Below are positions 5,177-36,386 of a stretch of DNA of 64,000 nt, in pieces. Position 1 is the stretch's first letter, and each line of letters starts with the position of its first letter. Where the stretch lies: contig NZ_VNHX01000017.1 in assembly GCF_008124885.1 (NCBI RefSeq), forward strand, positions 1 through 64,000, given 5' to 3'. The position numbers and the translations under genes were made by a program. The notes beneath the pieces are model-generated. The model was given only the letters and a program-made list of their open reading frames with translations, searched no databases and was not told the origin of the DNA. The stretch comes from Sphingobacterium allocomposti (GTDB taxonomy: Bacteria; Bacteroidota; Bacteroidia; Sphingobacteriales; Sphingobacteriaceae).

Positions 5177-8149
5177 ATGTATATGAAGGAGAAATTTCCG
5201 TATACATGTAATATCGGTGTACTTGTCGTATCCATATTACTCTCACAAATTCAACTTTTTGGGCATAACAGAACGGGAAATCATGTAGGCGCGTTTGTAA
5301 CAGTTCAAGACACCGTCCCGCAACTTCTGGATTCGGTTTTCGAGCTGAATTTCAAAAATATCCGTCCATCGTCCGTTCACAAGAGCGCGGCAGACATTGC
5401 GCTATACGGCTACGCTACCATCCCGCAGTCATTAAAGGGAGAGGCGGCGGGGCTGTACGTAACGGAGCATAGCGGCGAACCCGGAACACCTAACTACATG
5501 TTTGTCAGAGGCATATCCACGCCTATTTTCAGTCACAAGGATGTTTACCTTAACCAGCCGTTGGTAGTCCTGGACGGGATCCCCCTGATCAGTCCCCATC
5601 CGTTTTCGTATGCTATACAGGCCTACGACATCGATCGGATAGGGCCCGAAAACAACCTACTTAGCAATATAGAGATAGACAATATCGCGTCGATCGAAGT
5701 ACTGAAAGATCCGGCCACCATAGCCGTCTACGGACCTATGGCAGCAAACGGTGTCATTAAAATAACATCCAAAAAAAGTGCTAAAAACGATAAAAAAAGG
5801 ATCGGTGTAAACAGTTTCATCGGCATGTCCCAACGACCGCACGTAAACACAATCAACGGTAGCTTCGAAAATCGCTTCCGCCAGCAGTTTTATGATCTGT
5901 ATACCACAAACGGCCGTTACGATGAGGACGAAAGCTATCCGATTTATCTCAGTGACTCGCTGAACAGCCGGTACTACGGGCCGTCAAACTGGTCGGACAG
6001 CTATTACAACAACGGGATGAATTACGGCATCAACGCTGCCATCTCCGGAGGAGGAAGCCGTTCAAATTTCCAGTTTTCCTTAGGCCACCTACAGAATGCC
6101 GGAATAGCCGAAGACACAAAATTCCGAAAGTACGGCGCCCGCTTTCAGCTTGATCTACAACCGCTAAAATGGCTCTTTTTTCATACCAGTATTAACGGGA
6201 CGCGGTTGGCACGGGACCGCAACAAAAACCTAAGAAACAGGTACGCTATGATGTCGTATATACCGGATCTGAGTGCGCCGCTGGCTCCTAATCGTGAGGC
6301 TTATGACGCCTACCGCAACGAATACAACAAAAGTTTTGACGACAACTATTCGAACATTCTGGAGGGCAACATGATGGTAAACATACAGTTCTCATCGTTC
6401 AAACTCCAGTCTCGATTGATGGTCGACTACAATGAGGGATTTAGGGATCTATTCTATCCCAGCACGCTGATGGAGAACAACAATTTTGCGTCCAATTATT
6501 ATGGATACAACCAGCGGCTAATCTTCGATAACGTAGCCTCGTTTGATTGGCGGCTTAACAAACACAGCAATCTACAGCTGGACGCCGCCAATATACTTCA
6601 GTGGGACCAACATAAGTACAACTACGCTTACGCCTATAAAGGCGTCAATGATTTTATAAAGATCAATCTCCTGGAGTCTGACCCTAATAATGGCAATTAC
6701 CTAAATCCTACCGCCTTTCCCCGCCAGCTTGTTTTCAAATTTCTCGATAGGACACGGCATAACCTGGTGTCGTTCTACGGCCGGGGCACGTACAATCTGC
6801 TCGACAAATACACGGCGAGCGTACTGCTGCGCTATGATGGCTCATCAAACGCGCAGCCCACCAGCAGGTGGCTGTTTACCCCTTCTGTTGCCCTCGGCTG
6901 GAACATCAAGAACGAGTTCCTGCAGGATAATCCACTCTACGAAAGCTTCAAAATACGGGCCAGCGCAGGCCGATTGGGTATTCTGAACATCTATGATCAT
7001 ATCGCGCAAGGACCTAACTATACGGCTCAAATCGGTTATACCGGCAATGTAATTGTTCCGGGATACAACGGCATGGCGGCCCTGGTAAGGCCCTATGCAG
7101 ATGGCTGGATCGGCTACGACATGCCATGGGCGTATACCGATCAGGTCAACGTCGGCCTTGACTTTCAGCTTTCTAAACGGAACATATACTTCTCACTGGA
7201 CGCTTACGTGAAGCATAACAAAAACCAGGCGCTCACCATGCCTGCCTATGCGGAATACGGCTATGAATACACACTGGAACCGGGCATGGACGTCCGGAAT
7301 ACGGGTGTGGAGTTAGCCTTAGGTGGAGACTTCATAAGCGCAGGGCAGTTCCGTTGGAACTCCGGTATCAATGTCGGGTTCAACAACAACAGGTTGACAG
7401 CATTGCCGGGGGGCCGCGAAGAGGTGATCGTCCAAAATCGCATGTTAAAAGTCGGTGAGCGCATCGACGCCTTCTGGATTCTCGAGAACGAAGGCATATA
7501 TCAATCGGACGCCGACATTCCCGAAGTGGACGGGATAAAAATGAACTATAACGGAACAGCTTTCAAAGCGGGCGATCCAATCTGGAGAGATCAAAACGGC
7601 GACAACCGGATCACGGCGCAAGACCGTGTGCTGCGGGGCAATTATATCCCGAAAGTGGCAGGTTCCTGGCAGCACAACTTCTTCTATAGAAATTTCGACC
7701 TCAAGCTGAACTTCTATTTCAACCTGGGTCGGGAGATCATCAACCAGGAAATGTCGAGACGGTTCGACTTCATCAACAACGAGAACTCCGGTAATATCAA
7801 CGCGGTAAAAGAAATAACCTATTGGGAAAAACGCGGCGATTACGCAAAGTACCCGCTATATAATCCATGGAGCACCGTGAATGCCTATCAGGCAAACCAG
7901 GATCTCTTTCTGGAAAACGGATCGTTTTTAAAGCTGAGACAGGTATCACTGGGTTATGATTTCTCCAATATACTGGCATCGTCTCTGGATGGAGGCAAAC
8001 TCTACGCATACGTAACGGCCAACAACCTCTTCACGGTTTCCAACTATTCCGGCCGTGATCCGGAAATTGCCAACTACCTCGGATATGATGAAGGATATAA
8101 TATGCTAATTCCCAGAACATTTTTAATGGGTTTCAAACTAAACTTTTAA
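5177..8149 (+). CDS. SusC-like TonB-dependent outer-membrane transporter without CPD domain
   Basis: A 990-residue SusC/RagA-type transporter, the outer-membrane barrel through which a SusD-bound ligand is taken up at the cost of TonB energy. After a signal segment (about 1-30) comes a plug domain, with VLDGIPL at 131-137 and the IASIEVLKDPATIAVYG signature. A long TonB-dependent beta-barrel follows, ending in the aromatic FKLNF typical of outer-membrane proteins. It lacks the carboxypeptidase-D-like domain and the EVVVxGYG segment seen in the other SusC proteins here, which is unusual. It is the first gene of the operon and is followed after 10 bases by its SusD partner. Confidence 0.93.
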   Translation: MYMKEKFPYTCNIGVLVVSILLSQIQLFGHNRTGNHVGAFVTVQDTVPQLLDSVFELNFKNIRPSSVHKSAADIALYGYATIPQSLKGEAAGLYVTEHSGEPGTPNYMFVRGISTPIFSHKDVYLNQPLVVLDGIPLISPHPFSYAIQAYDIDRIGPENNLLSNIEIDNIASIEVLKDPATIAVYGPMAANGVIKITSKKSAKNDKKRIGVNSFIGMSQRPHVNTINGSFENRFRQQFYDLYTTNGRYDEDESYPIYLSDSLNSRYYGPSNWSDSYYNNGMNYGINAAISGGGSRSNFQFSLGHLQNAGIAEDTKFRKYGARFQLDLQPLKWLFFHTSINGTRLARDRNKNLRNRYAMMSYIPDLSAPLAPNREAYDAYRNEYNKSFDDNYSNILEGNMMVNIQFSSFKLQSRLMVDYNEGFRDLFYPSTLMENNNFASNYYGYNQRLIFDNVASFDWRLNKHSNLQLDAANILQWDQHKYNYAYAYKGVNDFIKINLLESDPNNGNYLNPTAFPRQLVFKFLDRTRHNLVSFYGRGTYNLLDKYTASVLLRYDGSSNAQPTSRWLFTPSVALGWNIKNEFLQDNPLYESFKIRASAGRLGILNIYDHIAQGPNYTAQIGYTGNVIVPGYNGMAALVRPYADGWIGYDMPWAYTDQVNVGLDFQLSKRNIYFSLDAYVKHNKNQALTMPAYAEYGYEYTLEPGMDVRNTGVELALGGDFISAGQFRWNSGINVGFNNNRLTALPGGREEVIVQNRMLKVGERIDAFWILENEGIYQSDADIPEVDGIKMNYNGTAFKAGDPIWRDQNGDNRITAQDRVLRGNYIPKVAGSWQHNFFYRNFDLKLNFYFNLGREIINQEMSRRFDFINNENSGNINAVKEITYWEKRGDYAKYPLYNPWSTVNAYQANQDLFLENGSFLKLRQVSLGYDFSNILASSLDGGKLYAYVTANNLFTVSNYSGRDPEIANYLGYDEGYNMLIPRTFLMGFKLNF

Positions 8150-8159
8150 TAGCTGCCAT

Positions 8160-9665
8160 ATGAAAAAGATATTATACGTTTTTGTTCTTTTCTCGCTTTC
8201 TCTCGTTGGCTGCAGCAAGATGTTGGACATTGATTCCACGAGAGTGGTCTCTGAAGAGCATATGTGGGAGAAAATGGAGGACACACGCGCTGCCTTATTG
8301 GGCGTATACGCATTAACTAAATCGGCCCTCGTCGACCGGAACGCCTTTTGGGTTTATGGTGAAGTGCGGTCGGGCGAGTATTCCGTTCCCGTACGAAGAG
8401 ATTTAATGGCTATTGCAGCTAATCAGCTGACCGCTAATGACGAAACCCTGGAAGCCCTCCGTAACTGGCGCCGGTGGTATGCTGTGATTAACGCAGCTAA
8501 CGTATTTATAGAAAGGGCGCCCGAAGTGCTTGTTAAAGACGACCGGTACAACGAGGCCAATCTCAGGGTTGACGTGGCGCAGGCACGGCTCTTAAGGGCG
8601 TTCGCCTACTTTTACATGACCAGAATATGGGGAGATGTGCCCCTTATAACGGCTTCTTCCGAAAGCACTTTCGCGGCTAAACCGCGGGAAGAGCAAGAGA
8701 AGATTATGGCCTGGGTTGAGCAGGAACTGCTCGCTGCCATCCCCGACCTGCCACTACGGTATAGTGTAAACGAGCCCGAGCAGCTGGGGAACTATTATAA
8801 CGAGGCCCCCTCCCGCTGGGATGGGGCGCTTGCGACAAAGATTGCTGCTTACGCTGTTCTTGCCCATCTTGCGGCCTGGCAGGAAAATTATCCCGATGTA
8901 GCGGCTTATACTGCTTACATCATGGATAACTATGGGCGGGCCAATATAAGTTACGTAGCGACAAATAGCCTCACATCGCCCAACGGCTTCTTCTTTGATA
9001 AGCATAGCAGCCAGATGTTTTCCTTTCCGGGCGTATGGGCACATCTTGAAGGAGCATTCACAGGGCATATTGAAGAGCTGACCTTGGCGGCTCCGGTCGT
9101 CAATAAGAGCGCACCCGACATCTATCTAAACAAGGAAAGGATCATCAACATCTTTAACGAGCCGAAAGATCAACGCTTTAGCATTGACACGCTGGGAAAC
9201 CCGCTAAATGAAGGCTACTTCCGCAACTTCAACGGACGATATCCGATATTCAGTAAGATCAAATGTATACAGGGGGGAAACACCGATCCTTATTTTCAGA
9301 TTTTCTCAAGCGCGCTTGTTTTTTCACGTCTCGAAGATATTACGCTGTTACGCGCAGAGGCACTCGCCGTACTAGGTGAAGAAGCCGGTGCAACAGATCT
9401 GCTAAACAGAATCCGTGAGAACAGGGGGCTTATAGACTATTCGCGCGAGACGAACGGTGATCTGGTGGATGCTATTTTCAGGGAACGCCATCGGGAGCTT
9501 ATGGGCGAAGGACACCGCTGGTACGACCTGGTTCGCTATCATAAGATCAAAAACAACGATCCCACATTTGTGCGGTTGATCCGCGAGGGGGGCATATACT
9601 GGCCGATATCGGAACTGGTGCTGCAAAACAACAACCTCCTGGAACAGAACAACTATTGGAAATAA
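8160..9665 (+). CDS. SusD/RagB family nutrient-binding lipoprotein
   Basis: A 501-residue SusD-like surface lipoprotein, the lid that captures the ligand over the SusC barrel. The signal peptide ends in the lipobox LSLVGC, with Cys18 as the lipidated residue. The TPR-like helical core and C-terminal signature are clear: ARLLRAFAYFYMTRIWGDVPL, RLEDITLLRAEALAVLG, and IFRERHRELMGEGHRWYDLVRY near the end. It pairs with the SusC gene 10 bases upstream, and a fasciclin lipoprotein gene follows after 22 bases. The ligand is unknown. Confidence 0.93.
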   Translation: MKKILYVFVLFSLSLVGCSKMLDIDSTRVVSEEHMWEKMEDTRAALLGVYALTKSALVDRNAFWVYGEVRSGEYSVPVRRDLMAIAANQLTANDETLEALRNWRRWYAVINAANVFIERAPEVLVKDDRYNEANLRVDVAQARLLRAFAYFYMTRIWGDVPLITASSESTFAAKPREEQEKIMAWVEQELLAAIPDLPLRYSVNEPEQLGNYYNEAPSRWDGALATKIAAYAVLAHLAAWQENYPDVAAYTAYIMDNYGRANISYVATNSLTSPNGFFFDKHSSQMFSFPGVWAHLEGAFTGHIEELTLAAPVVNKSAPDIYLNKERIINIFNEPKDQRFSIDTLGNPLNEGYFRNFNGRYPIFSKIKCIQGGNTDPYFQIFSSALVFSRLEDITLLRAEALAVLGEEAGATDLLNRIRENRGLIDYSRETNGDLVDAIFRERHRELMGEGHRWYDLVRYHKIKNNDPTFVRLIREGGIYWPISELVLQNNNLLEQNNYWK

Positions 9666-9687
9666 CCTATTTAAAGCAAGTACGAAG

Positions 9688-10785
9688 ATGAAACTCCGAA
9701 TAATATTTATTTTATGCTGCTTTTTAGCACTCTCGTGCAGCAAAGATGGTGGCTACTACAAACACGAGCTAGACAAACCGCGCTTTGATGGCAGTGTCTA
9801 TGCCTACCTAAAAAGCAAACCGGGTGTCTATGATTCACTGATAAAGGTAATTGACCGCGTGGGCTTAGAGGGCATCATGTCGGATAGCAACATTACGGTG
9901 TTTGCTCCCACTAACGAAAGCTTCAGACTGGCTATCGAAAACCTGAACAATATCCGTCGCCGTGCAGGGCAGGCCACCGAATTTTTGGCCAACGTAGAAT
10001 ACGAACATCTGGACACGATGATGTCGCAGTATATTATACGCGGCCGCTATGCCGGCGACTCACTAACAAACCAGGACGGCTCATTTATATATGACTTCCG
10101 CCACGGCTACCGCATGCATGGCAAGCTAACGCAATCGTATTCTTCCGGATATATAGGGGGTGGCCCATCAGTCATTGAATTCAGCGATACAAAAAACAGT
10201 CCGTTCCTCCGAAATTGGGTAACAACCAGCACCGCATCAATCAACATCGAAGCGGATAACGGCATTGTGCATGTGCTCGCGCCAGATCATGTCTTCGGAT
10301 TTAACGACTTTGTGAAGAGACTGACCTTTATTCCTCCTCCACCGAACTTGTTTTTCACCGTGGGCGGTACGTTTACAGCGTCTCATGAACATAGCGGCGG
10401 CCCGAATGCCGTAGAAGCTTCCAAATATGTATTTGACGGTAACCCACAGACCAAGTTCCTTCTAGGCTTCCCCAACTCATTATGGTTGCAGGCCGAGCTA
10501 AACGAGCCTTCCGTTGCGAACGCCTATACGCTGACATCAGCCAATGATGCGCAGGAAAGGGACCCAATAGACTGGAGGCTGGAAGGTTCGCATGATGGAA
10601 CAAACTGGACACAGCTTGACTCGAGATCATCAGAAGAGTTTGTCGACCGGTTCATGCAACGTGTGTTTAGATTCCGTAACACGACGGCATACACCTTCTA
10701 CAGACTGACAATCACGAGGATACGTAGCGGATCAACCTTTCAGTTGGCTGATTGGTCCGTAAACTACGAAGAGCTAGAACGTTAA
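9688..10785 (+). CDS. Fasciclin + F5/8C-domain lipoprotein
   Basis: A 365-residue lipoprotein with lipobox LALSC (Cys17). Residues about 35-210 form a fasciclin-like (FAS1) domain (GLEGIMSDSNITVFAPTNES, later NGIVHVLAPDHVFGF). Residues about 225-362 form a discoidin-like F5/8C domain with YTLTSANDAQERDPIDW and GSHDGTNWTQLDSR. FAS1 domains mediate adhesion and F5/8C domains often bind carbohydrates, so a surface binding role is likely. Its FAS1 part is paralogous to the protein at 16675, and its F5/8C part to the C termini at 20782 and 22182. Confidence 0.88.
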   Translation: MKLRIIFILCCFLALSCSKDGGYYKHELDKPRFDGSVYAYLKSKPGVYDSLIKVIDRVGLEGIMSDSNITVFAPTNESFRLAIENLNNIRRRAGQATEFLANVEYEHLDTMMSQYIIRGRYAGDSLTNQDGSFIYDFRHGYRMHGKLTQSYSSGYIGGGPSVIEFSDTKNSPFLRNWVTTSTASINIEADNGIVHVLAPDHVFGFNDFVKRLTFIPPPPNLFFTVGGTFTASHEHSGGPNAVEASKYVFDGNPQTKFLLGFPNSLWLQAELNEPSVANAYTLTSANDAQERDPIDWRLEGSHDGTNWTQLDSRSSEEFVDRFMQRVFRFRNTTAYTFYRLTITRIRSGSTFQLADWSVNYEELER

Positions 10786-10817
10786 CAAGTATAATAGAAA
10801 CTTAAGGATAACCCAAC

Positions 10818-11909
10818 ATGATGAGTTATATTAAATATAAAGTTCAGGGAAGTATGGCAGCACTGTCGCTCCTCACTTTATTCTCCTGTGACAACATGTA
10901 TAATTTGCCAACTGATCAAGATTTTATCAGTGAGAATTTAACATATAATACAAAAGTTTTAGAACCAATCCTAGGGCGGACGACTGTGTTCACGCCGCTG
11001 AACGTAGACAACTCTACGCTCCCGCTTCAATTCGAGATTGTAAACGCCCGTTTTGGCGATGGTACGCCGGCGACCGACTTTCTGGAAAACGCCGAAACCT
11101 ATGAATGGATCGATGAATACGACGGCAGAGAGACCTCCCTTCAGGAGATAGAAAGCAAACGCCGGCTGGTCAGTAAACCCATGTTTGAGGTGGATTCGGG
11201 CGGACGGTTTATCTTACATGCTTCGGCTACGAGCGATCGTATCCTGCCCAGACCTACAGACTCGGTACTGAAAACGCAGGACATCCGCTTTTTCGATCTG
11301 AAGCTGAGCAATTCGGGAGGGGTACGGTACGTGAAAGATTTCCAGCTTATCCCCTGGCGCGAAATGGACTACGATCCGACAGACCTGAACCCGTACACGG
11401 GAGAGATTGCACCGGATCCCGCTAATCCGAAGGACCCCAGAAAAAGAGCTTATATTTTGCCCAGCATAATGGTTGGTCTCGTCGGAGATAGCACAGATGT
11501 TAATCTAATAAATAACGATCAGAAGAAAGATCTCGTGGTTTACATCCGGCAATTTCAAGGAGGAAACGGACACAAACTGCGTTTCAAGTTTCTGGATAAA
11601 AAAGGGAACCCCATCAATCCGGCGGAATTTAACGAGACAAGATGGGATAACCTGGTACACGGGTTTAATCGGGAAACCACGTCCGAATATGTACAATATG
11701 ATGTGGCTTATCCCATCCCGCTCACTTCTTTCAATACCGTCTATACAATGGGGGGCCGTGCACGTGCTCTGTTTAGTTATTCCCGTATGGGTTGGGGAGG
11801 CGTACGTCAGCTGGCCACCTTTGGGCTTGACTTCAGAATATTTAAGAAAGGCGATTGGGAAATTGTTTTCCACTTCCAGAACGACAATCCAAAATTTGAT
11901 AACGACTAA
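10818..11909 (+). CDS. DUF5007-like lipoprotein of the Sus operon
   Basis: A 363-residue lipoprotein: the hydrophobic leader ends in LTLFSC (Cys about 25). The body is beta-rich with many aromatic residues and resembles, from memory, the DUF5007 family that is repeatedly found in SusC/SusD/fasciclin operons; this assignment needs a profile search. No catalytic motif is visible. It sits between the two Sus pairs. Its stop codon overlaps the start of the next SusC gene by one base (TAATG), so the two are almost certainly translated together. Confidence 0.7.
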   Translation: MMSYIKYKVQGSMAALSLLTLFSCDNMYNLPTDQDFISENLTYNTKVLEPILGRTTVFTPLNVDNSTLPLQFEIVNARFGDGTPATDFLENAETYEWIDEYDGRETSLQEIESKRRLVSKPMFEVDSGGRFILHASATSDRILPRPTDSVLKTQDIRFFDLKLSNSGGVRYVKDFQLIPWREMDYDPTDLNPYTGEIAPDPANPKDPRKRAYILPSIMVGLVGDSTDVNLINNDQKKDLVVYIRQFQGGNGHKLRFKFLDKKGNPINPAEFNETRWDNLVHGFNRETTSEYVQYDVAYPIPLTSFNTVYTMGGRARALFSYSRMGWGGVRQLATFGLDFRIFKKGDWEIVFHFQNDNPKFDND

Positions 11910-14900
11910 TGTGGCTCTCTATGAAAAATAAAATTATATATAGCGTACTGTTGCTTTGGATAGGTTTCTCTTTCCACGCTACAGCACAAACTTTACGGGG
12001 CAGGGTACTGGATACTGACGGTAAAGGGCTGGGAGGTGTCACGGTAATCAATACGTCGACAGGCCGGGCACTCGTGGCTACCGAACCCAATGGATCTTTT
12101 TCTGTATCTATTACCAGCAACACGACATTGCTCTTTAAGCTGGTAGGGTATACCGACAAACGTGTTAACGTACAGCGTGGCCAGACAAGCCTTACCGTTA
12201 CGTTGGCTGCCTCAGACCAAGGTATTGAAGAAGTCGTCGTAACCCGTGGCTACGCGAAGCGGCCCAAAGAGACCTCGACAGGGGCTTCGAATATCTTAAC
12301 GGCAGACGACATCCGCGACGTACCGGGACCGTTGGAATCGTTGCTGCAGGGAAAGGTGCCCGGCATGAACATCCAAGTAAACACCGGTGCTCCCGGATAC
12401 CGGGGAACCACACAGATCAGGGGACTTTCTACACTGACCATCACAGGATCAGGAAGCGAGTCTATCCTGATGCCGACATCACCTCTGTATGTGATCGATG
12501 GTGTTCCGCTCGACGCCGACCGCGCGTCCGAAATGGGGCTGCAGCAACAAGGCCCCGGTATCAGTCCGTTGTCCATGATCCCTCCGGAAGATGTAGAAAG
12601 CATCGAAATACTCAAAGACGCACAGGCAACCTCATTGTACGGTTCGCTTGCTGCCTACGGGGTGATCATTATCAATACCAAAAGAGGAAACTCGGAAATA
12701 CCGCGCATCAATTATACCAACAATACGTTTATCAAGACGCCGCCCAAACTAAGAGAAACGCTGGGCGGAAACCTGGAAAGAAGACTGAAACTACAGCAGA
12801 TCTACGGCAATGCGCTGACCCAGGAAGATATCGACAGAATACAGCGTACGCCGCACCTGTCGGATAGCTTGAACGCGTACTTTAACAATTCCACAAACTG
12901 GCAGGACCTGTATTTTCAGACAACATTGAACCAGAGCCACAACCTTAGCGTAGACGGCGGTAACAGAATACTCTCGTATAAAGCCAATATCGGTTACTAC
13001 ACCGAGACCGGCATTATACGGAATACGGGCTTTGACCGCTACTCTACCAACCTGCGCATGGATTACAGTCCGGACAGCAAGATACGCTTTACCGGACAGG
13101 TCTTCGCACAGCTAGGCAAAGTAAATAAAGGTGATGGTACGGGGATCCTACAAACAGGCGTGGCCAGAGGAGGGCTCTCTTCTACCCTATTACCGCCGCC
13201 ATCCTTCTATCTGGCATCGTCGGACTATATCTCGTCGATTAGTACGAAAAACACGAATAACGTCCGGGTAATACGTCCTTATATTGAGGGATCATACGAG
13301 ATCTTAACGGGGCTACGTCTGACGTCGGCATTAAGCTACGAATTTTCGTCCAGCACGGAGGACACGTTCACGCCGGCCGCCGCCAGCAACCAGTTCTCAA
13401 AAGTATACTCCTTTGCCGGACGCGAGACGCAGCTTTACAGCCGGAGCTCCCTCAATTACATGAAGTCGTTCAACGAGGAACATAACATCTTCATCAACTT
13501 GTTTAACGAGGTCAGAAACGTCACGCGACAAAACTCGGTCATCCACCAGCACCGCACGCCAAACGATATTTTTCAGGGCCCCCTGGGCTTTGATGGATAT
13601 TTCTCGCGCGGCGGTGGTCTATTGAATAACTTTAAAGACGAGCGGGCCGTGTCTTTCGCTTTGTCGACTTCCTACGACTTTAAACGAACATATGTGGTGG
13701 ATCTATCTTATCGGATGGATGGCTCCTCGGGCAACGGTTTCGGTAACCTATACACGCGGAACCCAGCTATTGGTTTCCGTTGGAATGCCCACCACGAAGA
13801 GTGGATCAAGGAAAGGGCGCCTTGGTTGAATCTAGGCTCCGTACGTGCCAGCTGGGGAATAAACGTGATGCCGAACAGCACACTGGAACGTGTCTACGGA
13901 CGCTATAATATCTGGGGGAACTATAATCAGCAACAGGGTATCGGAATAGATTTCGGTCAGATTCCTAACCCGAACCTGAAGCCGACGACCTCTTCGCAGT
14001 ATAACCTGGGGATCGATCTCGCGTTGTTCAATAACAAGGTGGATCTTGTCTACGACACGTACTACAAGAAAGTAGACAATCTCCTGTTCGATCAATTCCT
14101 GAACAGCTCGGTAGGTTTCCATGTATTGGCCTCCAACGATGCGGCCATAGCAAACTATGGACATGAGCTTGCGTTGAACATCCGCCCGATAAATAGAGGC
14201 GACTTCAACTGGACATTCTCAATAAACGGAGCCCTGAATAGGGACGTACTGCTAAAGCTCCCGGCCCATTATGGTGGACAATTTATCCGGTGGGACGGGG
14301 ACAACAACGGACAGCATGTGGTATTCCGCGTCGGAACATCGACACTGTCTAACTATCTGCTTCTGAACGAAGGGGTCTATAGCCGCGACGAGGACGTGCC
14401 GATTGACCCCGCTACAGGTTTACGGTATCGGGCCAGCAGCGGCGTATTTTTCGAGGCCGGCGACCCCATCTGGGCCGACCGAAACGGCGACTACATCCTG
14501 GACGACCGCGACTATGCGCGAACAGGGAACTCCCAACCGCTTATTACCGGAGGTATGCAGAACACGTTCAACTACAAAAACATTCAGCTGAGCATCTATG
14601 CCTCCTTCACGGCGAAAAGGACAATTTTAAACAACGCGCTTGCAGAACGTATGGCCTTAATGGCTAACCCATTTGGCCAAGGGGGCGACAACAAGGTGGT
14701 TGTTCCACTAGATGGCTATGATATGTGGCGTCAGCCCGGCGACGTTGCCAAGTATCCGTATGCCTACGCCTACACGCGGAGCAATACCATACAGCCGTTC
14801 CGATACGATCAGACGCTCTGGGAAGAAAATGGAACGTATTTCAAGATCAACAACATCATTCTGGCGTACAATTTCAACCGCAGCTTCTTAAGCAGGTACG

Positions 14901-15061: not shown

Positions 15062-15068
15062 TCAAGTC

Positions 15069-16673
15069 ATGGAGCAAAAGCATCACATACAAACCTATAA
15101 ACTAGTCAGAACGCTGCTGATTACTGCCCTCCTATTAACAGGCACGGGCTGCCAAAAATATCTAACTATCGATCCGATAGACCGCCTGACGGGGAACAAT
15201 TTTTACCTATCAAAGGCCGACGTCGAATCTAATTTAGCTTTTATCTACTCTAGGTTTTTCCAGAAGATTCAGGAAAGCTGGGTAATGGGAGCCATCGGCG
15301 AAGCAAGATCAGGGGAGATTTTTCCGTCTCCACAGTCGGGCGATGCCCGTACGCGGCCGATAGATCCAGACGAACGACAAGTAGTCCAGGTGCTGGGCCG
15401 TAACAACCTGCTCGACGCCATCTACAATCCCCGATTCTTAGACTATAAATTCGAAAACATCACTCGCTGGGATGGCTACTACCAGGTCATTCAAAGCGTC
15501 AATATTCTGCTTTCGAAGCTTGAGGAAGGTATTCCCGGCGTGAGCGGAGCAGACAAAGACCGGTATGTAGCGGAAGCAAAATTCATCCGTAGCTTTACCT
15601 ATTTTTGGATGGTACGGTTATACGGCGATGTGGTGTATTACACAGAACCGTATTTTTCCTCCTCTCTGCCACGGGAAGATATGGTGTCTGTATTAAACAA
15701 GTGTATTGCAGACTTGGAACCGGAGAAAGACAAGATCGTCTGGACGTTGACCGACCCGGCGCAACGCGGCGCGCGTCCAGCGAGAGGAGCCATCGTTGCC
15801 CTGCTAATGCATATGAACGCCTGGAACGCATCCTTTGATCGGGCGAACAGCCAAAGCTACCATAATAAAGTGGCCGCACTCGGCAAAGAGCTGATCGATA
15901 GCAAAGCCCATCGCCTATACGAAATGACCGAGGAATCCTGGGCTCAGGTGGCCAAAGGAAGAACGGAAGAATCCTTATTCGAATTTTATCGGAGTGTAAA
16001 CTATGGCGATGTTACCCTATTTCCGGAGACGTGGGACAACTTCGATGTAAGAAACCATTACCAGTTTTGGAGTCATTTTTTACGGTGGCCCTATCTTTTT
16101 CCGCGTCATGATAAGTCTATCAGCCCTTGTTACTTTATCTCGGATTATATGAACAAAATCTATCCCGAGGGCGATGCCGATAGGCGGCGTGACTTGTGGA
16201 TCGAAGATATTACGGCGGATAACGGTCAATTTGTATTGAAAAAGTTTGCAACAAACGTGTATACTTCCGGCAACGAACAAGGGTATCCAGACAATTCCAT
16301 TATCATCTTCCGATACTCGGACGCCATCTTGCTGTACGCCGAGTCCCTCGCAGAGTTAGATCGAACAACGGAGGCTATAACGGCTTTGAATATGGTCCGC
16401 CGCCGGGCGCACGCCACACCATATTCCGGAGATGGCGGCGGCCCGCTTAAGAATTTCATTTTCTCCGAAAGATGCCGTGAGCTTATCGGTGAAGCGCATC
16501 GCTACTTCGACCTGATACGTACGCGGAGGATTATGAATTCAGAGTGGACCAGAACCCCTATGAATATCGATCAATATAACCGGCGAGCCTGGACATGGCC
16601 TTTGCACGAAAGTGCGCGGATTTATAATCCACAGATTGTATTAAATGAGTACTGGACTACAATAGGGAGATAA
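15069..16673 (+). CDS. SusD/RagB family nutrient-binding lipoprotein (second)
   Basis: A 534-residue SusD-like lipoprotein. The signal peptide ends in LLTGTGC, followed by QKYLTIDPIDRLTG, the usual SusD N terminus. Core SusD features follow: FIRSFTYFWMVRLYGDVVYYT, YSDAILLYAESLAEL, and FSERCRELIGEAHRYFDLIRTRR near the C terminus. It is the partner of the SusC gene directly upstream and is followed after one base by a fasciclin lipoprotein gene, so translation is probably coupled. The ligand is not known. Confidence 0.93.
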   Translation: MEQKHHIQTYKLVRTLLITALLLTGTGCQKYLTIDPIDRLTGNNFYLSKADVESNLAFIYSRFFQKIQESWVMGAIGEARSGEIFPSPQSGDARTRPIDPDERQVVQVLGRNNLLDAIYNPRFLDYKFENITRWDGYYQVIQSVNILLSKLEEGIPGVSGADKDRYVAEAKFIRSFTYFWMVRLYGDVVYYTEPYFSSSLPREDMVSVLNKCIADLEPEKDKIVWTLTDPAQRGARPARGAIVALLMHMNAWNASFDRANSQSYHNKVAALGKELIDSKAHRLYEMTEESWAQVAKGRTEESLFEFYRSVNYGDVTLFPETWDNFDVRNHYQFWSHFLRWPYLFPRHDKSISPCYFISDYMNKIYPEGDADRRRDLWIEDITADNGQFVLKKFATNVYTSGNEQGYPDNSIIIFRYSDAILLYAESLAELDRTTEAITALNMVRRRAHATPYSGDGGGPLKNFIFSERCRELIGEAHRYFDLIRTRRIMNSEWTRTPMNIDQYNRRAWTWPLHESARIYNPQIVLNEYWTTIGR

Positions 16674-16674
16674 T

Positions 16675-17418
16675 ATGAAAGTGATGACAAAATCGACACT
16701 AAGGAGCGCGGCGCTACTATTAATGGCGGCCCTTTGCCTTTGGTCTTGTGCCAAGGACGACTACTATACCGACGGGGGACGGGCACAGGCCGAGTTTGAC
16801 GGTTCTATTATGGATTACCTGGATTCCAAACCAAGAGAGTTCGATACCATCGCGCAAATTGTGCGGCTGGCGGGGCTGGAGGATAAGTTCAAAAACGAGG
16901 AATTCACATTTTTTGCACCACGCGACGAAGATATCAAAAGCCTGATTGGTTCGTTGACAGTAGGTGGCTTGAATAGGCAACTCTACCTTTTAGGATTGGA
17001 TACCGTACAAGTATTGAGCGACGTAGATCCTGCCATCTGGAACTTCTATCTGCACCGGCATATATTTAACGGGAAAAATAAACTAGCCGACTACCCGCAG
17101 GTAGATTATGGTCTCATGAACGTTTACGGAGGGCAGAACTATTACTCGCAAGGAGACGGCATCTTTAATATCGGTGTGGTATACCACGATGCCGTGAGCT
17201 CCGACGGCACCTCGGTATTACGGTATATGGGTTACAGACAGCTGCACATAGGTTACATCGCTGACCTCGCCACCCCGAATACATTCAATGCGGTGCCGGT
17301 TGCTTCTTCCGACATTCAGCCCCGCAACGGCGTTGTACATGTGCTGGATTATACACAAGGGGTCTTTGGATTCCGCGATGGAGATATACAGACAGATATT
17401 ATTCAAAGTAAAAGGTAA
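16675..17418 (+). CDS. Fasciclin-domain lipoprotein
   Basis: A 247-residue lipoprotein (leader ends LWSC, followed by AKDDYYTDGG) with a single FAS1-like domain over most of its length. LAGLEDKFKNEEFTFFAPRD and the C-terminal NGVVHVLDYTQGVFGFRDGD are the FAS1 H1- and H2-like regions. It is a paralogue of the N-terminal half of the protein at 9688, with the same CxKD-aromatic start and DSKPREFDT stretch, but lacks the F5/8C tail. It probably contributes to adhesion or ligand binding on the surface beside the second Sus pair. Confidence 0.85.
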   Translation: MKVMTKSTLRSAALLLMAALCLWSCAKDDYYTDGGRAQAEFDGSIMDYLDSKPREFDTIAQIVRLAGLEDKFKNEEFTFFAPRDEDIKSLIGSLTVGGLNRQLYLLGLDTVQVLSDVDPAIWNFYLHRHIFNGKNKLADYPQVDYGLMNVYGGQNYYSQGDGIFNIGVVYHDAVSSDGTSVLRYMGYRQLHIGYIADLATPNTFNAVPVASSDIQPRNGVVHVLDYTQGVFGFRDGDIQTDIIQSKR

Positions 17419-17423
17419 AACCG

Positions 17424-19037
17424 ATGAAAACAACTACAACATATAAGCTCCTGGTGCTATTCTTGTGCGTCCTGATAGCAGGATGCGCGAAAGAAGCGAC
17501 GTTTTTCTCTGAGCCATACGAAGAAGGCCGGCCTCCCCTGCCGGTGACGTATGACAGGTCGCAGACGCTATCTCCTGCCAGTGGCGGGGTCGGTACCGTC
17601 GTCAAGGCAAAAATCGTAGGACTTGCTGAATTCCGGGACAAAGCTGTTTTTAAATTTAACGGTCAAGACGCCGAAATTATCAATATATCCGGCGACCAAG
17701 TAGAAGTACGCGTCCCACCCTATGCCAGTACAGGCGTCACCTCGGTGACCATTGACGATATTATCGTCTTCGGGCCCGAGTTTGAGGTCGAAGGAAAGAT
17801 AAAAATCGACCCGACCTGGGAAGCGAGGCAAGGGACAAACAACTACGTTAATGACCGCTTTGTGATGCCCGACGGTAAAGTAATATACGTTGGTAACTTT
17901 ACCGATTACAACCGCAGGGGGCTCGTCCGTCCGATCAACCGGCTGGTGCGGACGTACGCCAACGGCGTATACGATGTGAGCTGGAGAACCGGAACGGGAG
18001 CCAATGGATCGGTAAACAGTATCGTCCAGATTAACGACCGCTACTATATAGCAGGTGCTTTTTCGGGCTATAATCAGAAAAACGAGAACATTTCCAACAT
18101 CACTAGTCTACATCTAACCGGTGGATTGGATTCGGTAGGTGTAAAACCCTTTAGGAGACCCGATCAGTCGGACACCACCAAATATGTACCGCGGTTCAAC
18201 GGCGGGTTTAACGCTGCTGTTGCGAAGCTATATGCGCAAGGCGACAAGCTGATCGCTGCAGGTAACTTCAGGTACTATGTAAGCCGGAGATATGACCAGC
18301 CTAACGAGCGGGAAACACGGGATACCACCATTGTCGATAGTATCGAAATACGGCAGATCGCCCGTTTAAATCTCGATGGCTCCCTGGACAAAAGCTTCCG
18401 ATTTAATGGCAATACCCCTTTGCCGGGCGGAAACGGTAATATCGCTACCTTGCGGCATGAATCGGGCCCTCTACAGGGCAAAATATTGGTCTACGGTAGC
18501 TTTACACGGTTCGACAACAGACCCACGGGTTACGTTACGAGGTTAAACGCAGACGGCACCGTCGACGAGACATTCAATCCGGGAGGTACCGGCGCCGACT
18601 TTGTTATTGCCAATGCTACATTCAACGAACAAACGCAGAAATATGTGCTGGTCGGCCAGTTTAGGTCGTATAACGGCCAGCCCGCAGCAAATGTTGCGTT
18701 GCTGAATGCCGACGGCACATTAGACGAGAACTTCCGGGCGAGGGCATTTGTAGGAGGATTCCCGAACTATGCCAAGCAGCTCAGCGACGGCCTGATCGTC
18801 GTGTCGGGGACCTTCATGACTTATGATGGCGTTACACGGAATCGTTTTATGATACTGAATCCCAACGGCGCCCTGGCAGATCCGGCCTTTAACGCTACCG
18901 GCCAGTTCTCGGGCACCCTATTCCACGTCGTGGAGACCACTTCTGAGGACGGAAAACGGGCCTTATTGCTGATGGGTAGCTTCTCTAAATTTAATAATGA
19001 AGACGTTTCTAACCTGATTAGAGTGACTATTGAATAA
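17424..19037 (+). CDS. IPT/TIG + delta-60 repeat lipoprotein (DUF5008-like)
   Basis: A 537-residue lipoprotein with lipobox LIAGC (about Cys21). Residues about 45-120 look like an IPT/TIG immunoglobulin-like domain (LSPASGGVGTVVKAKIVGL, ending in VRVPPYASTG). The rest carries repeats of the delta-60 beta-propeller type, seen as LNLDGSLDKSF, LNADGTVDETF, LNADGTLDENF and LNPNGALADPAF, each followed by GSF/GQF/GTF strands. It probably folds as a binding propeller on the surface. It may belong to the DUF5008 group known from such operons, but that is recalled, not tested. No enzyme motif is seen. Confidence 0.8.
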   Translation: MKTTTTYKLLVLFLCVLIAGCAKEATFFSEPYEEGRPPLPVTYDRSQTLSPASGGVGTVVKAKIVGLAEFRDKAVFKFNGQDAEIINISGDQVEVRVPPYASTGVTSVTIDDIIVFGPEFEVEGKIKIDPTWEARQGTNNYVNDRFVMPDGKVIYVGNFTDYNRRGLVRPINRLVRTYANGVYDVSWRTGTGANGSVNSIVQINDRYYIAGAFSGYNQKNENISNITSLHLTGGLDSVGVKPFRRPDQSDTTKYVPRFNGGFNAAVAKLYAQGDKLIAAGNFRYYVSRRYDQPNERETRDTTIVDSIEIRQIARLNLDGSLDKSFRFNGNTPLPGGNGNIATLRHESGPLQGKILVYGSFTRFDNRPTGYVTRLNADGTVDETFNPGGTGADFVIANATFNEQTQKYVLVGQFRSYNGQPAANVALLNADGTLDENFRARAFVGGFPNYAKQLSDGLIVVSGTFMTYDGVTRNRFMILNPNGALADPAFNATGQFSGTLFHVVETTSEDGKRALLLMGSFSKFNNEDVSNLIRVTIE

Positions 19038-19044
19038 TAAAGCC

Positions 19045-20769
19045 ATGAAAAAGATTAATTTAAATACACTCAAACACCTGCTCATGTCGTTCTTGGTGCT
19101 GAGCCTCTTCAGCGACTGTAAAGAAGACTTTAGCAAAGTGATTCCCGTGTCGGAAGATGAAGAAATTGACGTCGCCTACGGCGCCAGAAAAGTTTTGCTG
19201 CTTGTCGTGGATGGGGCGCGCGGACAGTCTGTGCGGGACTCTAAATCGCCCACCATAAGCGGATTGTTGCCCAATGCAATACATACGTGGGTTGGGCTTA
19301 GTGAGGAAAATGCACAGGGTATCGCTGCCAACTGGACGGGCATCTTTACAGGGGTAGGAATCGCTAAACACGGCGTCGTCGATAACGATTTCTCAACGAA
19401 CAAACTCGACATATACCCGTCGGTTTTCGAAAGAATTGTCGATTTCGATCCGGGGGCAAAAATAGAACTTATCAGTGCAAACCAGCAGTTTATCGACCAT
19501 TATGGAGAGCGCGCGACAACAAGACTGGCAAGCAGCGACGAAGATGTCAAAAACAAGGTTATAGCCAGTCTAGGCGCGGAAGATCAAACCCTAATAACCG
19601 CTCATTTTGAGGACGTACAGCGGGCCGGGCTGGAAAGTGGGTTTGATATCTCCTTTAGTAAATATAAGGAAGCCATAGACGGCTTCGATAGCCGTGTCGG
19701 CGAAATCTTAGCAGCACTCGAAAAACGGGAAAAATACCAGCGGGAAGACTGGTTGGTCATCATCACATCGAGTCAGGGCGGATATTTCGAAATTCCGCAG
19801 GAGGAAAACGACAATACCGTGTTTAGTAATCCTTCTGTAAACACGTTCACGATCATGTATTCGCCGCGGTACAATTCTAAATTCATCGGTAAGCCCTACA
19901 TCGGCAATAGGCTATCCGGCGAGTTTATGCGTTTCAATGACGTTAAGTATGCCGAACTGCAGAGCGAGAACGATTTATTCGACCTGGGTGACGGCGACTT
20001 CACCATAGAGATAAAAATCAAAAAGAATAGAGGCCCCAACAACAACTATCGGTTTAGCCATCCCTCCATCATCGGCAAGCGGGAGACATGGCAGGGAGGA
20101 TGGGACAGAGAACAGATGTTCGGGTGGGTGATCCATCTCTCGGACGACTTCTGGGTGTTTAATGGGCGGGGCGACAAGGGGTATGGCGAGGTTAAATCCG
20201 ATCAAAACCAACGCTTAAACAACGCAACCTGGAATACCATAACACTTGTCGGTGTACGTCGGGATGGCGAGCGGTTTGTCCGGCTGTATACCAATGGGGT
20301 ATTCAACCGCGAGGGTAACATTACCGGATGGGGTAACCTGGACACCAGGTGGCCGCTGCGAATCGGCTTCTTGCCCACGCGGGAAAATTGGCGATCAGAC
20401 GCCTACTTAGCCGATGTTAAGATCTGGAAGACGGCAATGCCGGACGATATGGTCAGACAGTACAGCTGCGACATTGGTGTCGATCCGAACCATCCTTATT
20501 ATAACTACCTGGCCGGTTACTGGCCCATTATGGGGACAAATACAGAAGGAATGATCTTCGACGAAGGGCCTTACGGCGCCCACCTAAAATTGGGGGATCC
20601 CGCCTATCCTACCACCATGCTCAACGATTTCATTTGCTCACCCTCTACAGAACAGCTTGGACTGCTCGTTCCACGTACATACGATGTTTCCGCGCAAATC
20701 ATCAGCTGGTTGAAGGTGCCCCGTCAACTTAGTTGGCAAATGGATGGTCGGGTTTGGTTAGACAAATAA
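19045..20769 (+). CDS. Degenerate phosphodiesterase-fold + LamG lipoprotein (DUF4983-like)
   Basis: A 574-residue lipoprotein (leader ends LFSDC). The N-terminal half has the alkaline-phosphatase/type I phosphodiesterase layout: KVLLLVVDGARG, then NWTGIFTGVGIAKHGVVDN, then WLVIITSSQGGYF. Key residues are lost. The usual S-D-H-G-G metal site reads S-S-Q-G-G, and the expected nucleophile Thr before the NW is replaced (QGIAANW). The C-terminal half is a concanavalin-like LamG domain (YAELQSENDLFDLGDGDFTI ... VRLYTNG ... YLADVKIWKTAMPDD). It is thus probably a binding protein and not an enzyme. ATG 19045 is preferred over the TTG at 19030, which overlaps the previous gene. Confidence 0.8.
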   Translation: MKKINLNTLKHLLMSFLVLSLFSDCKEDFSKVIPVSEDEEIDVAYGARKVLLLVVDGARGQSVRDSKSPTISGLLPNAIHTWVGLSEENAQGIAANWTGIFTGVGIAKHGVVDNDFSTNKLDIYPSVFERIVDFDPGAKIELISANQQFIDHYGERATTRLASSDEDVKNKVIASLGAEDQTLITAHFEDVQRAGLESGFDISFSKYKEAIDGFDSRVGEILAALEKREKYQREDWLVIITSSQGGYFEIPQEENDNTVFSNPSVNTFTIMYSPRYNSKFIGKPYIGNRLSGEFMRFNDVKYAELQSENDLFDLGDGDFTIEIKIKKNRGPNNNYRFSHPSIIGKRETWQGGWDREQMFGWVIHLSDDFWVFNGRGDKGYGEVKSDQNQRLNNATWNTITLVGVRRDGERFVRLYTNGVFNREGNITGWGNLDTRWPLRIGFLPTRENWRSDAYLADVKIWKTAMPDDMVRQYSCDIGVDPNHPYYNYLAGYWPIMGTNTEGMIFDEGPYGAHLKLGDPAYPTTMLNDFICSPSTEQLGLLVPRTYDVSAQIISWLKVPRQLSWQMDGRVWLDK

Positions 20770-20781
20770 ATCTATAAGACT

Positions 20782-22155
20782 ATGAAGACAGTAAAAAATA
20801 TCGGCTTTATCATAACGCTACTCTGCGCCTTTGCTGCGTGTCGGGAAACGGCGCTGGAAGACTTTAGACCCGTGGAAACATCGGCCGTGCAGGTCTCAGC
20901 GGGCACCACTATAAAAAATGTAACAAAAACCAACGAGTCGCTGACGGTTACCGTAGGACTAACATTGAGCGGCCACGCTTCGAAAGCCTTCGAAGTGGGG
21001 CTGCGTGTCAACCAGGACACCGTGTTAAAGCAGCTGGAGGCGGGAACACTAAAAGACGTCTCCGCGGTATCGGCTGCAGCTGTACAGATCGATAACGTGG
21101 CGAAAGTAAGCTATGGGTCCGATGTTGCAGAGTTCCGTATAGCGATCACACGGACGGAAGTCGAGCGGCACTTTGGCAAAAAAATAGCGATTGGCTATTC
21201 GCTCAATGACGCCAGCAAGGAAAATAATATTGACGAGAAAAACAGTGTTGGTATTATTATCCTTAACACGGCAGAGCTGTTAACGGTGGAGGATATTCAT
21301 TATCTTTCCTTCCAAACCGGCGGAGATATTGTAACCGCGCGCGACCGACAAAACTATAACAGCTCTTCGGGCGGTATTTCCATCCCGTTAACCGTCAATT
21401 TGGCCAGCTTTCCGGGAAACGCTTTTTCTATCGACATTGTCACCGATCTGGACACAGTACAGCGCATGGTTACGGCCGGAACGCTGCCCCCGAATACGGT
21501 AGCGCTGCCGGAGGACCGGTTCACAGTGGATGACAAACTCAGTTTCCGGAGCAACGCAAGCCAGGCAACATTTGCCGTGGATGTCCCTTGGTCTACAATC
21601 AATGAAAACGAAGGGAAGCTGCTGGCGGTCGTTGTCCGTCTCAGAAACCCAAGCCTGCATATTGTCGACCCGGCCAAAAGCTTTACCACCATCTTAATCG
21701 ACTGCGACAACGTGCTCGAGGAGGATGTAACCAACCTCGGCGTCTTCTCCGTTAATAGAGACAACGGCGGAGGGCCTGATGCTGCAGAAGGGTCTAAAAA
21801 AATGGTTGATAATAATTTCACGTCGAAGTTCCTCCAACCGGACTTCACGGGAGACCTTGTATGTATGTTGGTGTTCCCCGAACCTCAAAAGATCGGAGCT
21901 TATACGCTGACATCGGGGAACGACGCCCAGCAGCGGGATCCAAATGAATGGGAACTACAGGCTTCCAACGATGGCGTAAACTGGACTACGATTGACAGCC
22001 GCAGAAATGAAACATTTGCCAACCGGTTAATGACGAGACGGTTTAATATCGCCTACCCTGTCGCTTATACCCACTACAGGCTAAATATCACGTCTATCGT
22101 AGGCGGCACGAACCTGTTCCAGATTACCGAATGGAGGATGATTAAAGTACGTTAA
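20782..22155 (+). CDS. DUF1735-like + F5/8C-domain lipoprotein
   Basis: A 457-residue lipoprotein (leader ends FAAC, followed by RETALEDF). It has two DUF1735-like beta-sandwich units in tandem, about 40-165 and 175-310. Each ends in a segment on the calcium-free 'valid response' pattern (KKIAIGYSLNDASKENN and GKLLAVVVRLRNPSLH). An F5/8C domain follows at about 320-457, with YTLTSGNDAQQRDPNEW and SNDGVNWTTIDSR. DUF1735 proteins usually sit beside SusD as surface glycan-binding proteins, which is the likely role here. The last domain is a paralogue of those at 9688 and 22182. Confidence 0.82.
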   Translation: MKTVKNIGFIITLLCAFAACRETALEDFRPVETSAVQVSAGTTIKNVTKTNESLTVTVGLTLSGHASKAFEVGLRVNQDTVLKQLEAGTLKDVSAVSAAAVQIDNVAKVSYGSDVAEFRIAITRTEVERHFGKKIAIGYSLNDASKENNIDEKNSVGIIILNTAELLTVEDIHYLSFQTGGDIVTARDRQNYNSSSGGISIPLTVNLASFPGNAFSIDIVTDLDTVQRMVTAGTLPPNTVALPEDRFTVDDKLSFRSNASQATFAVDVPWSTINENEGKLLAVVVRLRNPSLHIVDPAKSFTTILIDCDNVLEEDVTNLGVFSVNRDNGGGPDAAEGSKKMVDNNFTSKFLQPDFTGDLVCMLVFPEPQKIGAYTLTSGNDAQQRDPNEWELQASNDGVNWTTIDSRRNETFANRLMTRRFNIAYPVAYTHYRLNITSIVGGTNLFQITEWRMIKVR

Positions 22156-22181
22156 TTTTCAGACCCTAAAAAGCAACAAAT

Positions 22182-23222
22182 ATGACCAGAAATCCTTTAT
22201 ATTTTATGATAGCCCTCCTAATAGCACTGACGTCCTGTTCAGATAAGGAAGACCCTATCATCGACGATGAGCCATTACTGCCGAAGCCCACAGCGTCCTT
22301 CACCTATGAGGTAGTCGATCCGAAGGATCCGTTTACTATCAAGTTCACCAACACTTCGACCAACTACGGAGCTACGCGTTGGTCGTTTGATGATGACAGC
22401 ACGTCGTCTGAGGCCTCTCCTACCCATACGTTTCTCAAAACAGGCAGCTTTGTGGTAAAGCTCGTAACCGTGAACGACGAGGGTTTTTGGGCGCAACGGG
22501 AAGAGACGGTGAGGATAGTGCCTTCGGAGTTGATGCAGCTCGTCGCGTCCCCCTCTGCTGACGGTCTCCGTATGAGCTATGAAACGGACGTGAACGTCGC
22601 GAAAACGCAATGGTTTATCCGTGAAAACGAACAGACCTCACACCTGGAGTCGGAAGAGCCTGACATGAAATTAGACATACCTGATGGACAGTTTGTAAAT
22701 GCTTACGTCGTGCTAACCACGCCAAAAGGTTCCGTCATGTCAATGAACATGCTTTTGGCGAGCCTGGGAATAGTGAGAGATCTCACGACACTGGACAATG
22801 AGTTTACGGTATCTCATGAAAACGGCGGCGGCAGAGACGCCGGCGAGGGTTCGTCCAAACTGATCGATAATAACATTACCACGAAATGGTTTGTAGGCGG
22901 CATAAACGATTCGTATTTCTATTGGCAGTTCGAATACTACCAACCGCAGGTGGTCAACGGCTATTCGATGACTTCAGGAAACGACGCGGACGACCGCGAC
23001 CCTAGAGATTGGGATATTTTGGGATCCAACGACGGACAAAATTGGACTGTGCTCGATTCAAGAACGAATGAAAACTTTAGTTCGCGCCGGTTGACCAGAA
23101 TATTCTCGTTTGATAACGCTACGCCTTACACGTTCTATCGCATTCACATCAAAGCAAGGAAGTCCAGCAGTGCGTTCCAGATGTCTGAATTCCGCATGTT
23201 GAAACTGCCTACCGCGCAATAA
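22182..23222 (+). CDS. PKD + F5/8C-domain lipoprotein
   Basis: A 346-residue lipoprotein with lipobox ALTSC (about Cys19). Residues about 35-110 are a PKD domain: PTASFTYEV, TRWSFDDDSTSSEASPTHTF and SFVVKLVTVNDEG. A beta-rich linker follows, then an F5/8C domain at about 205-340 with YSMTSGNDADDRDPRDW and GSNDGQNWTVLDSRTNE. This is the last gene of the long operon; a terminator hairpin starts 19 bases after the stop. A surface carbohydrate- or matrix-binding role is inferred from both domain types. Confidence 0.86.
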   Translation: MTRNPLYFMIALLIALTSCSDKEDPIIDDEPLLPKPTASFTYEVVDPKDPFTIKFTNTSTNYGATRWSFDDDSTSSEASPTHTFLKTGSFVVKLVTVNDEGFWAQREETVRIVPSELMQLVASPSADGLRMSYETDVNVAKTQWFIRENEQTSHLESEEPDMKLDIPDGQFVNAYVVLTTPKGSVMSMNMLLASLGIVRDLTTLDNEFTVSHENGGGRDAGEGSSKLIDNNITTKWFVGGINDSYFYWQFEYYQPQVVNGYSMTSGNDADDRDPRDWDILGSNDGQNWTVLDSRTNENFSSRRLTRIFSFDNATPYTFYRIHIKARKSSSAFQMSEFRMLKLPTAQ

Positions 23223-23241: not shown

Positions 23242-23288
23242 ATTCCAGCTATATGGCGCTACTACGTTCCATATAGCTGGAATTTTAG
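23242..23288 (+). terminator. Terminator of the dual-Sus operon
   Basis: A perfect 15-bp stem, ATTCCAGCTATATGG paired with CCATATAGCTGGAAT (23242-23256 / 23269-23283), followed by TTTTAG. It lies just behind the last gene of the operon and marks its 3' end. Confidence 0.88.
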
Positions 23289-31576: not shown

Positions 31577-31581
31577 TACAA

Positions 31582-34980: not shown

Positions 34981-35120
34981 AATTTTAAACTGATTTTAGT
35001 TCGTTAAATGATTGATGAATCTACAATGTTTGAATGAACAGATCGCATTTGTCAGGGAGTGTTCCCGCACTTCCTGACTTTACAGTCTGTCTTCTCCGTT
35101 TTTTTCTAGACAGTTTTATA

Positions 35121-36329: not shown

Positions 36330-36386
36330 TCTGATATAGCAACGTTGCTTTATATACAAGACACGTTATGGAAAAAAAAGGGGGTA

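Follow-up and report, generated by a model that had tools for sequence, protein, structure and literature searches.

A conserved twin SusC/SusD operon without enzymes in Sphingobacterium allocomposti: a candidate capture-and-import half of a split alpha-mannoside utilisation system

Introduction

What does a soil bacterium import through an operon that encodes two SusC/SusD pairs and a set of surface lipoproteins, but no working enzyme? Such an operon lies at positions 5177-23222 of the window analysed here, the first 64,000 nucleotides (forward strand) of contig NZ_VNHX01000017.1 of Sphingobacterium allocomposti (assembly GCF_008124885.1). Programs that find polysaccharide utilisation loci (PULs) read the substrate off the enzymes encoded at a locus, and an operon like this one, which has none, is assigned no substrate. 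Comparison across genera points out which unlinked enzymes probably belong to the operon and suggests its ligand. On this basis we propose, with a probability of about 65%, that the operon supplies capture and import in a split system for the utilisation of alpha-mannosides, be they mannosylated glycopeptides, N-glycans or fragments of mannoprotein. The ligand would be trapped by seven surface lipoproteins, of which three have a CBM32-like F5/8C module bearing a mannose-contact signature; two SusC/SusD pairs, both presumably serving this one ligand, would carry it across the outer membrane; and periplasmic GH92 alpha-mannosidases together with a BSP-family metallopeptidase, encoded on another contig, would trim glycan and peptide.

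Results

An operon of eleven genes without a working enzyme

Eleven large open reading frames (ORFs), all on the + strand, make up the operon. A first-pass annotation made from the sequence alone had the single strand right and the count, at ten genes, one too low. Consecutive ORFs are separated by 10, 22, 32, -1, 7, 1, 5, -8, 12 and 26 bases, in agreement with its description of gaps of at most 32 bases and some overlaps. Two modules come first, SusC-SusD-FAS1-DUF5007 and then SusC-SusD-FAS1-propeller; after them stand a pseudo-phosphodiesterase-LamG gene and two genes for lectin-like proteins:

5177-8149, + strand: SusC1, atypical (TIGR04056, E 5e-132, plug only; no PF13715 extension or VDEVVV-type TonB box)
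8160-9665, + strand: SusD1 (PF07980/PF14322; homolog of the solved structure 3hdx, E 4e-135)
9688-10785, + strand: fasciclin (FAS1) lipoprotein with a C-terminal F5/8C (CBM32-like) module at about 10348-10782 (Pfam)
10818-11909, + strand: DUF5007 lipoprotein, all-beta (PF16398, E 1.6e-55; AlphaFold2 mean pLDDT 89.7)
11909-15061, + strand: SusC2, canonical (TIGR04056, E 1e-185, PF13715; extension, EVVV TonB box, plug and barrel)
15069-16673, + strand: SusD2 (PF07980, E 5e-25)
16675-17418, + strand: fasciclin (FAS1) lipoprotein (PF02469, E 2.7e-7)
17424-19037, + strand: DUF5008/TIG and DUF5122 (delta-60) beta-propeller lipoprotein (PF17164, E 1.6e-36; PF16400, E 1e-4, below cut-off; TIGR02608)
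19030-20769, + strand: pseudo-phosphodiesterase, LamG and DUF4983 lipoprotein (PF01663, PF13385, PF16356; active-site residues lost)
20782-22155, + strand: DUF1735 (BT_3987-like N) lipoprotein with an F5/8C (CBM32-like) module at about 21736-22152 (PF08522 and PF00754, just under cut-offs)
22182-23222, + strand: PKD lipoprotein with an F5/8C (CBM32-like) module at about 22782-23219 (PF18911, PF00754)

Pfam searches confirmed every domain named in the first-pass annotation, the DUF1735 and F5/8C assignments of one protein falling just below cut-offs. Besides the two SusC/SusD pairs, Pfam and NCBIfam searches gave seven accessory lipoproteins; the annotation had spoken of six surface proteins while its own list held seven. 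A lipobox followed by acidic residues is the usual signal for surface export in Bacteroidota, and this arrangement was found by regular expression, which missed some, at the N-termini of most of them. Among the accessory proteins, only the delta-60 repeat was assigned to a specific NCBIfam family. For the DUF5007 protein, no fold in the PDB matched the AlphaFold2 model at E<=0.001, and a profile search of PDB sequences returned nothing.

No hydrolase or lyase domain exceeded Pfam cut-offs in the operon apart from a degenerate phosphodiesterase match, and the claim that the operon itself lacks a working enzyme therefore stands. The protein behind this match was compared with Xac NPP (2gsn), whose nucleophile Thr and six metal ligands we take as the reference active site of type I phosphodiesterase/NPP enzymes, and with 131 homologs. 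The Thr is gone, and the first Asp is the sole site retained among those aligned (the sixth metal ligand was not aligned). The same constellation is lost in the homologs (n=131), 105 from type A loci, by which we mean the 11-gene operon and its copies, and 26 from type B, a paralogous locus with an M60 peptidase. As the catalytic Thr and, with one exception, the aligned metal ligands are not kept as a set, the protein is a pseudo-enzyme.

Three F5/8C modules share a mannose-contact signature

The three F5/8C domains of the operon are 42-44% identical among themselves and 17-24% identical to the domains of two type B M60 proteins. A profile built from them matched a single PDB chain at E<=1e-4, namely 7nsn (E 1e-59), in which both CBM32s were hit. 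This structure is NnGH92, a GH92 alpha-1,2-mannosidase whose CBM32 holds mannoimidazole through Glu105, Asp148 and Arg152 with stacking by Phe122 (PMC10167667). The equivalents of Glu105, Asp148 and Arg152 are kept in 105, 106 and 106 of 106 FAS1+F5/8C sequences. The mannose-contact residues are likewise kept in 54/55 PKD+F5/8C sequences, the S. allocomposti protein presenting them as Glu222, Asp268 and Arg272, and they are also conserved in the module of the DUF1735 protein. In these counts some genomes contributed their copies twice, and many DUF1735 modules were cut by locus ends. The Phe122 position varies among operon copies. Only 1/19 type B M60 proteins matched the F5/8C profile, and it did so without the mannose-contact residues. 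By their contact residues, all three modules are predicted to be mannose-binding CBM32s of the NnGH92 type.

GH92 and BSP enzymes are linked to the operon in relatives and unlinked in S. allocomposti

In nine Sphingobacterium genomes a GH92-BSP-GH92 cassette lies about 0.6 kb upstream of the operon in the same orientation; several of these genomes carry a further GH92 gene 0.2-0.3 kb downstream of the last operon gene. Outside the genus, bacterium A37T11 has genes for an HExGH protein, a BSP and a GH92 downstream of the operon (BSP 54% and GH92 71% identical to those of the cassette, the latter to its second GH92); Desertivirga has two GH92 genes downstream, one 70% identical to the cassette's first; Pedobacter sp. 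MR2016-24 has one GH92 after the operon; and P. steynii has GH95, GH92 and GH20 there. S. allocomposti itself encodes an orthologous GH92-BSP-GH92 cassette, unlinked, at G000:C10:15663-21198, whose proteins are about 75, 50-55 and 70% identical to those of the linked cassettes. Its BSP keeps the HExxH motif. All three cassette proteins have what appear to be Sec-type signal peptides without a lipobox, which suggests a periplasmic location. The enzymes thus appear to be unlinked rather than absent, "no enzyme" being true of the operon and not of the system; the first-pass remark that no working enzyme is visible holds for the former alone.

A GH92 gene occurred within the scanned stretch at 4/22 loci outside Sphingobacterium, against 0.76 expected (P 0.008), the expectation being a random-genome estimate that takes no account of the general tendency of glycosidase genes to lie near SusC genes. 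Stronger evidence is that the genes found linked again and again are orthologous. Within Sphingobacterium, BSP was present in 24/27 genomes with the operon and in 30/53 without it (p 0.005, not corrected for kinship), a co-occurrence that is weak and confounded by kinship. In Parapedobacter tibetensis (G819 contig C78:140734-143475) a single open frame of 998 aa contains both a BSP and a GH92 domain, an apparent fusion that speaks for a coupling of the two.

A histidine kinase and a response regulator adjoin the unlinked cassette on contig C10, and comparison of the cassette with the operon revealed no common promoter motif. Four GH76-family genes are present in the S. allocomposti genome, none on contig C17; the operon has no GH76 linked to its SusC/SusD genes, as a yeast alpha-mannan PUL would. 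GH76 is present in most carrier genomes, and its survey was not decisive between yeast mannan and N-glycan. A GtaA-like six-hairpin protein (PF16335, PF17168, PF16334), possibly part of the pathway, adjoins the operon at L132, L154, L178, L182, L187, L189, L196 and L199, loci of Pedobacter, Mucilaginibacter and Desertivirga.

The enzyme-free form is conserved and separate from an M60 sister locus

The gene-neighbourhood survey proposed with the first-pass annotation was carried out on the 80 best relatives, gathered by a search with a DUF5007 alignment. Gene order was identical in 80/80 over the stretch covered for each and included no enzyme, with GH92/BSP neighbours in some; since the order recurs in this way, it is not due to chance. 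One of these loci ends at SusD2, one is cut inside the pseudo-phosphodiesterase gene, and two contain one ORF each with a wrong-strand call; the last gene lies beyond the 10-kb flank and was found in further stretches. Median intergenic gaps across the copies are 2-21 bases. Carriers belong to at least eight genera (Sphingobacterium, Pedobacter, Mucilaginibacter, Olivibacter, Parapedobacter, Anseongella, Desertivirga and Flavitalea, with a second Chitinophagaceae genome). The operon is found in 27 of about 90 Sphingobacterium species, and phylum-wide sampling of DUF5007 gave few matches outside this genus.

Type B loci (L061-L074 and L191-L194, in Sphingobacterium and Pedobacter) are the closest paralogous system found. 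They have the first nine genes in the operon's order and then an M60 peptidase with an F5/8C domain between two pseudo-phosphodiesterase-LamG genes, whereas the operon ends with the DUF1735+F5/8C and PKD+F5/8C genes. A well supported branch separates type A from type B in a SusC2 tree (made by a quick method, with a midpoint root for drawing only), in which the nearest sequence to that of S. allocomposti is from S. shayense. M60 in trans was considered as the missing enzyme and rejected: PF13402 is absent from the operon and from the whole 4.39-Mb S. allocomposti genome, as well as from 15/24 carrier genomes outside Sphingobacterium; it is also absent from 4/27 carriers within the genus (S. 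allocomposti, G049, G051 and G057). Because type A forms one clade and M60 is absent from many carriers, the enzyme-free form is best read as an old, stable lineage that does not need M60, rather than a recent loss.

Shorter and broken versions were also seen. Three Sphingobacterium genomes carry a stand-alone SusC-SusD-FAS1-DUF5007-like module among housekeeping genes (L077-L079; 4473-11036 in L077), and L081 has a similar module followed by M60; the twin operon may have arisen from such a unit. Sequence searches with a FAS1 and a DUF5007-like protein of the small module for BT2262/BT2261-like structures found nothing convincing. In Pedobacter steynii, L195 is an eight-gene version ending after the propeller gene, with no pseudo-phosphodiesterase, M60 or F5/8C proteins beyond. 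In L050, from a single-contig genome (G039), most operon genes are split into several frames, which looks like assembly errors or recent decay.

The two SusC proteins are unlike

SusC1 lacks both the N-terminal extension and the TonB box in 106/106 type A and 14/14 type B sequences; both are present in SusC2 (PF13715 and EVVV). Ahead of the SusC1 plug, a QDT triplet is the sole conserved feature in 60 non-redundant sequences, among which no TonB-type box is conserved. The SusC1 ORF already opens with the first start codon behind a stop, so no in-frame extension lies hidden upstream; 5183 is a more likely start than 5177, since it is ATGAAGGAGAAA that relatives conserve. For Bt1763, TonB box mutants resembled a SusD deletion, and loss of the N-terminal extension strongly affected growth (PMC7782687). 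The two barrels of the operon may therefore not be equivalent: SusC1 may have a divergent TonB box or may depend on SusC2. A more specific and rather doubtful idea is that both barrels sit in one hetero-assembly in which TonB energises SusC2 only, SusC1 being an unpowered second barrel that receives substrate passively or helps to load it. With two dissimilar SusC proteins conserved side by side, one of them missing the regions that link SusC to TonB, the division of work in twin SusCD systems becomes directly testable.

Discussion

Relation to known systems

The operon has the tandem SusC/SusD genes of a PUL, twice over. The co-located carbohydrate-active enzymes of a PUL are missing from it and are present at orthologous loci of some relatives, and no sensor or regulator was found among its flanking genes. 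As a conserved, enzyme-free, twin-SusCD split locus it is a variation on a known PUL-type system. The high-mannose N-glycan loci PUL72 (BT3983-3994) and PUL16 (BT1278-1285) of Bacteroides thetaiotaomicron resemble it in their SusC/SusD, mannose-binding surface protein and DUF1735-type domain; the periplasmic GH92s of PUL72 parallel the S. allocomposti cassette, and the sister PUL16 is free of mannosidases (PMC11180146). These loci encode a surface GH18 endoglycosidase and an extracytoplasmic function (ECF) sigma/anti-sigma pair, whereas the operon has no linked enzyme or regulator and, unlike them, includes two SusC/SusD pairs and FAS1, DUF5007 and propeller proteins. The Gpd complex of Capnocytophaga canimorsus (GpdCDGEF), which acts on N-glycoproteins (PMC3128124), likewise combines SusC/SusD with ConA-like and galactose-binding-like surface lipoproteins, but has the endoglycosidase GpdG and a single SusC/SusD pair; the operon has two pairs and no endoglycosidase.

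Alternative explanations

Several observations weigh against an alpha-mannoside system. Binding of mannan by the NnGH92 CBM32s could not be shown in solution (PMC10167667). With 1-16 per genome, GH92 genes are common here, and glycosidases tend to gather at PULs; linkage by chance is therefore likelier than the random-genome estimate implies. The cassette is unlinked in most genomes examined, and some neighbours differ, the GtaA-like protein standing next to the operon at about eight loci. BSP occurs in many Sphingobacterium genomes that lack the operon (the 30/53 given above), and none was found in G071 (S. alimentarium), which has it. No surface-located endo-enzyme was identified: GH18/GH85 and PNGase are absent from the operon, the remaining genome not having been searched for these. 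A pre-processed ligand, as the first-pass annotation had suggested, remains plausible.

The main competitor is a general importer of peptides or protein fragments of the RagAB or BT2263-64 kind, without sugar specificity, in which the lectin modules only dock glycoproteins. We know of no lectin modules with the mannose signature, and of no GH92 linkage, in those systems. They are, like the operon, SusCD importers, and peptides are established as ligands or cargo of some SusCD systems (PMC11992087, PMC7782687); the linked cassette does include a BSP metallopeptidase, and the four-gene modules exist without a nearby enzyme. Alpha-mannosidases nevertheless make up the majority of the linked genes and three modules share a conserved mannose-contact signature, which makes this explanation unlikely. 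Less probable again is an importer of mucin-type O-glycopeptides served by M60-like O-glycopeptidases encoded elsewhere. The type B locus, with its M60 gene, gives this idea substance, as does the mucin O-glycopeptide PUL BT4240-50, which couples the M60 peptidase BT4244, SusC/SusD and a DUF1735-CBM32 surface glycan-binding protein (BT4245) and for which glycopeptide is the proposed import substrate (PMC11992087). Yet the F5/8C domains of the M60 proteins lack the mannose signature, and the peptidase is missing from S. allocomposti and the other carriers counted above.

FAS1, F5/8C, PKD and Ig-like domains are frequent in adhesion proteins, and the first-pass annotation had considered an adhesion complex. 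Gene content gives no support to adhesion or extracellular matrix as the purpose in place of nutrition: two SusC/SusD importer pairs are always there, tightly coupled to the lipoproteins, and linkage to catabolic enzymes is recurrent, so that we regard such a role as very improbable. A decaying relic of an M60-type locus is hardly credible. Relative to type B, the M60 and second pseudo-phosphodiesterase genes have indeed been replaced, but eleven intact genes that are monophyletic and kept over several genera contradict decay, the sole fragmented copy (L050) looking like a sequencing or recent problem. Capture and import of an alpha-mannoside, with trimming by unlinked periplasmic enzymes, is the account that we favour.

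Transcription signals and neighbouring genes

Putative signals for transcription flank the operon:

4798-4837, + strand: promoter-like block AATTTGCTAAAACGTTTTTATGTATTTATATTAG, a consensus match only, followed by a leader of about 340 bases and SusC1
23242-23286, + strand: intrinsic terminator, a perfect 15-bp inverted repeat with a 12-base loop and a T run

The promoter-like block has the same or nearly the same letters in the two closest relatives and contains, at 4806-4824, the palindrome AAAACGTTTT, which we take to resemble operators of LacI-type regulators. The strong terminator placed at 23242 by the first-pass annotation was borne out: its arms, ATTCCAGCTATATGG (23242-23256) and CCATATAGCTGGAAT (23269-23283), are followed by T's, and the folding energy of the segment is -32.5 kcal/mol (z = -8.2). 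A consensus terminator scanner missed this hairpin because of its 12-base loop.

OsmC and GNAT genes lie upstream of the operon and a WG-repeat protein gene downstream (24295-25071), near which a 274-aa ORF at 25800-26624 has no Pfam match. Farther on, at 29903-36974 on the - strand, a separate SusC/SusD pair with an STN domain, a FecR anti-sigma factor and an ECF sigma factor form an ordinary regulated nutrient locus. The locus at 5177-23222 was not described in the literature searched.

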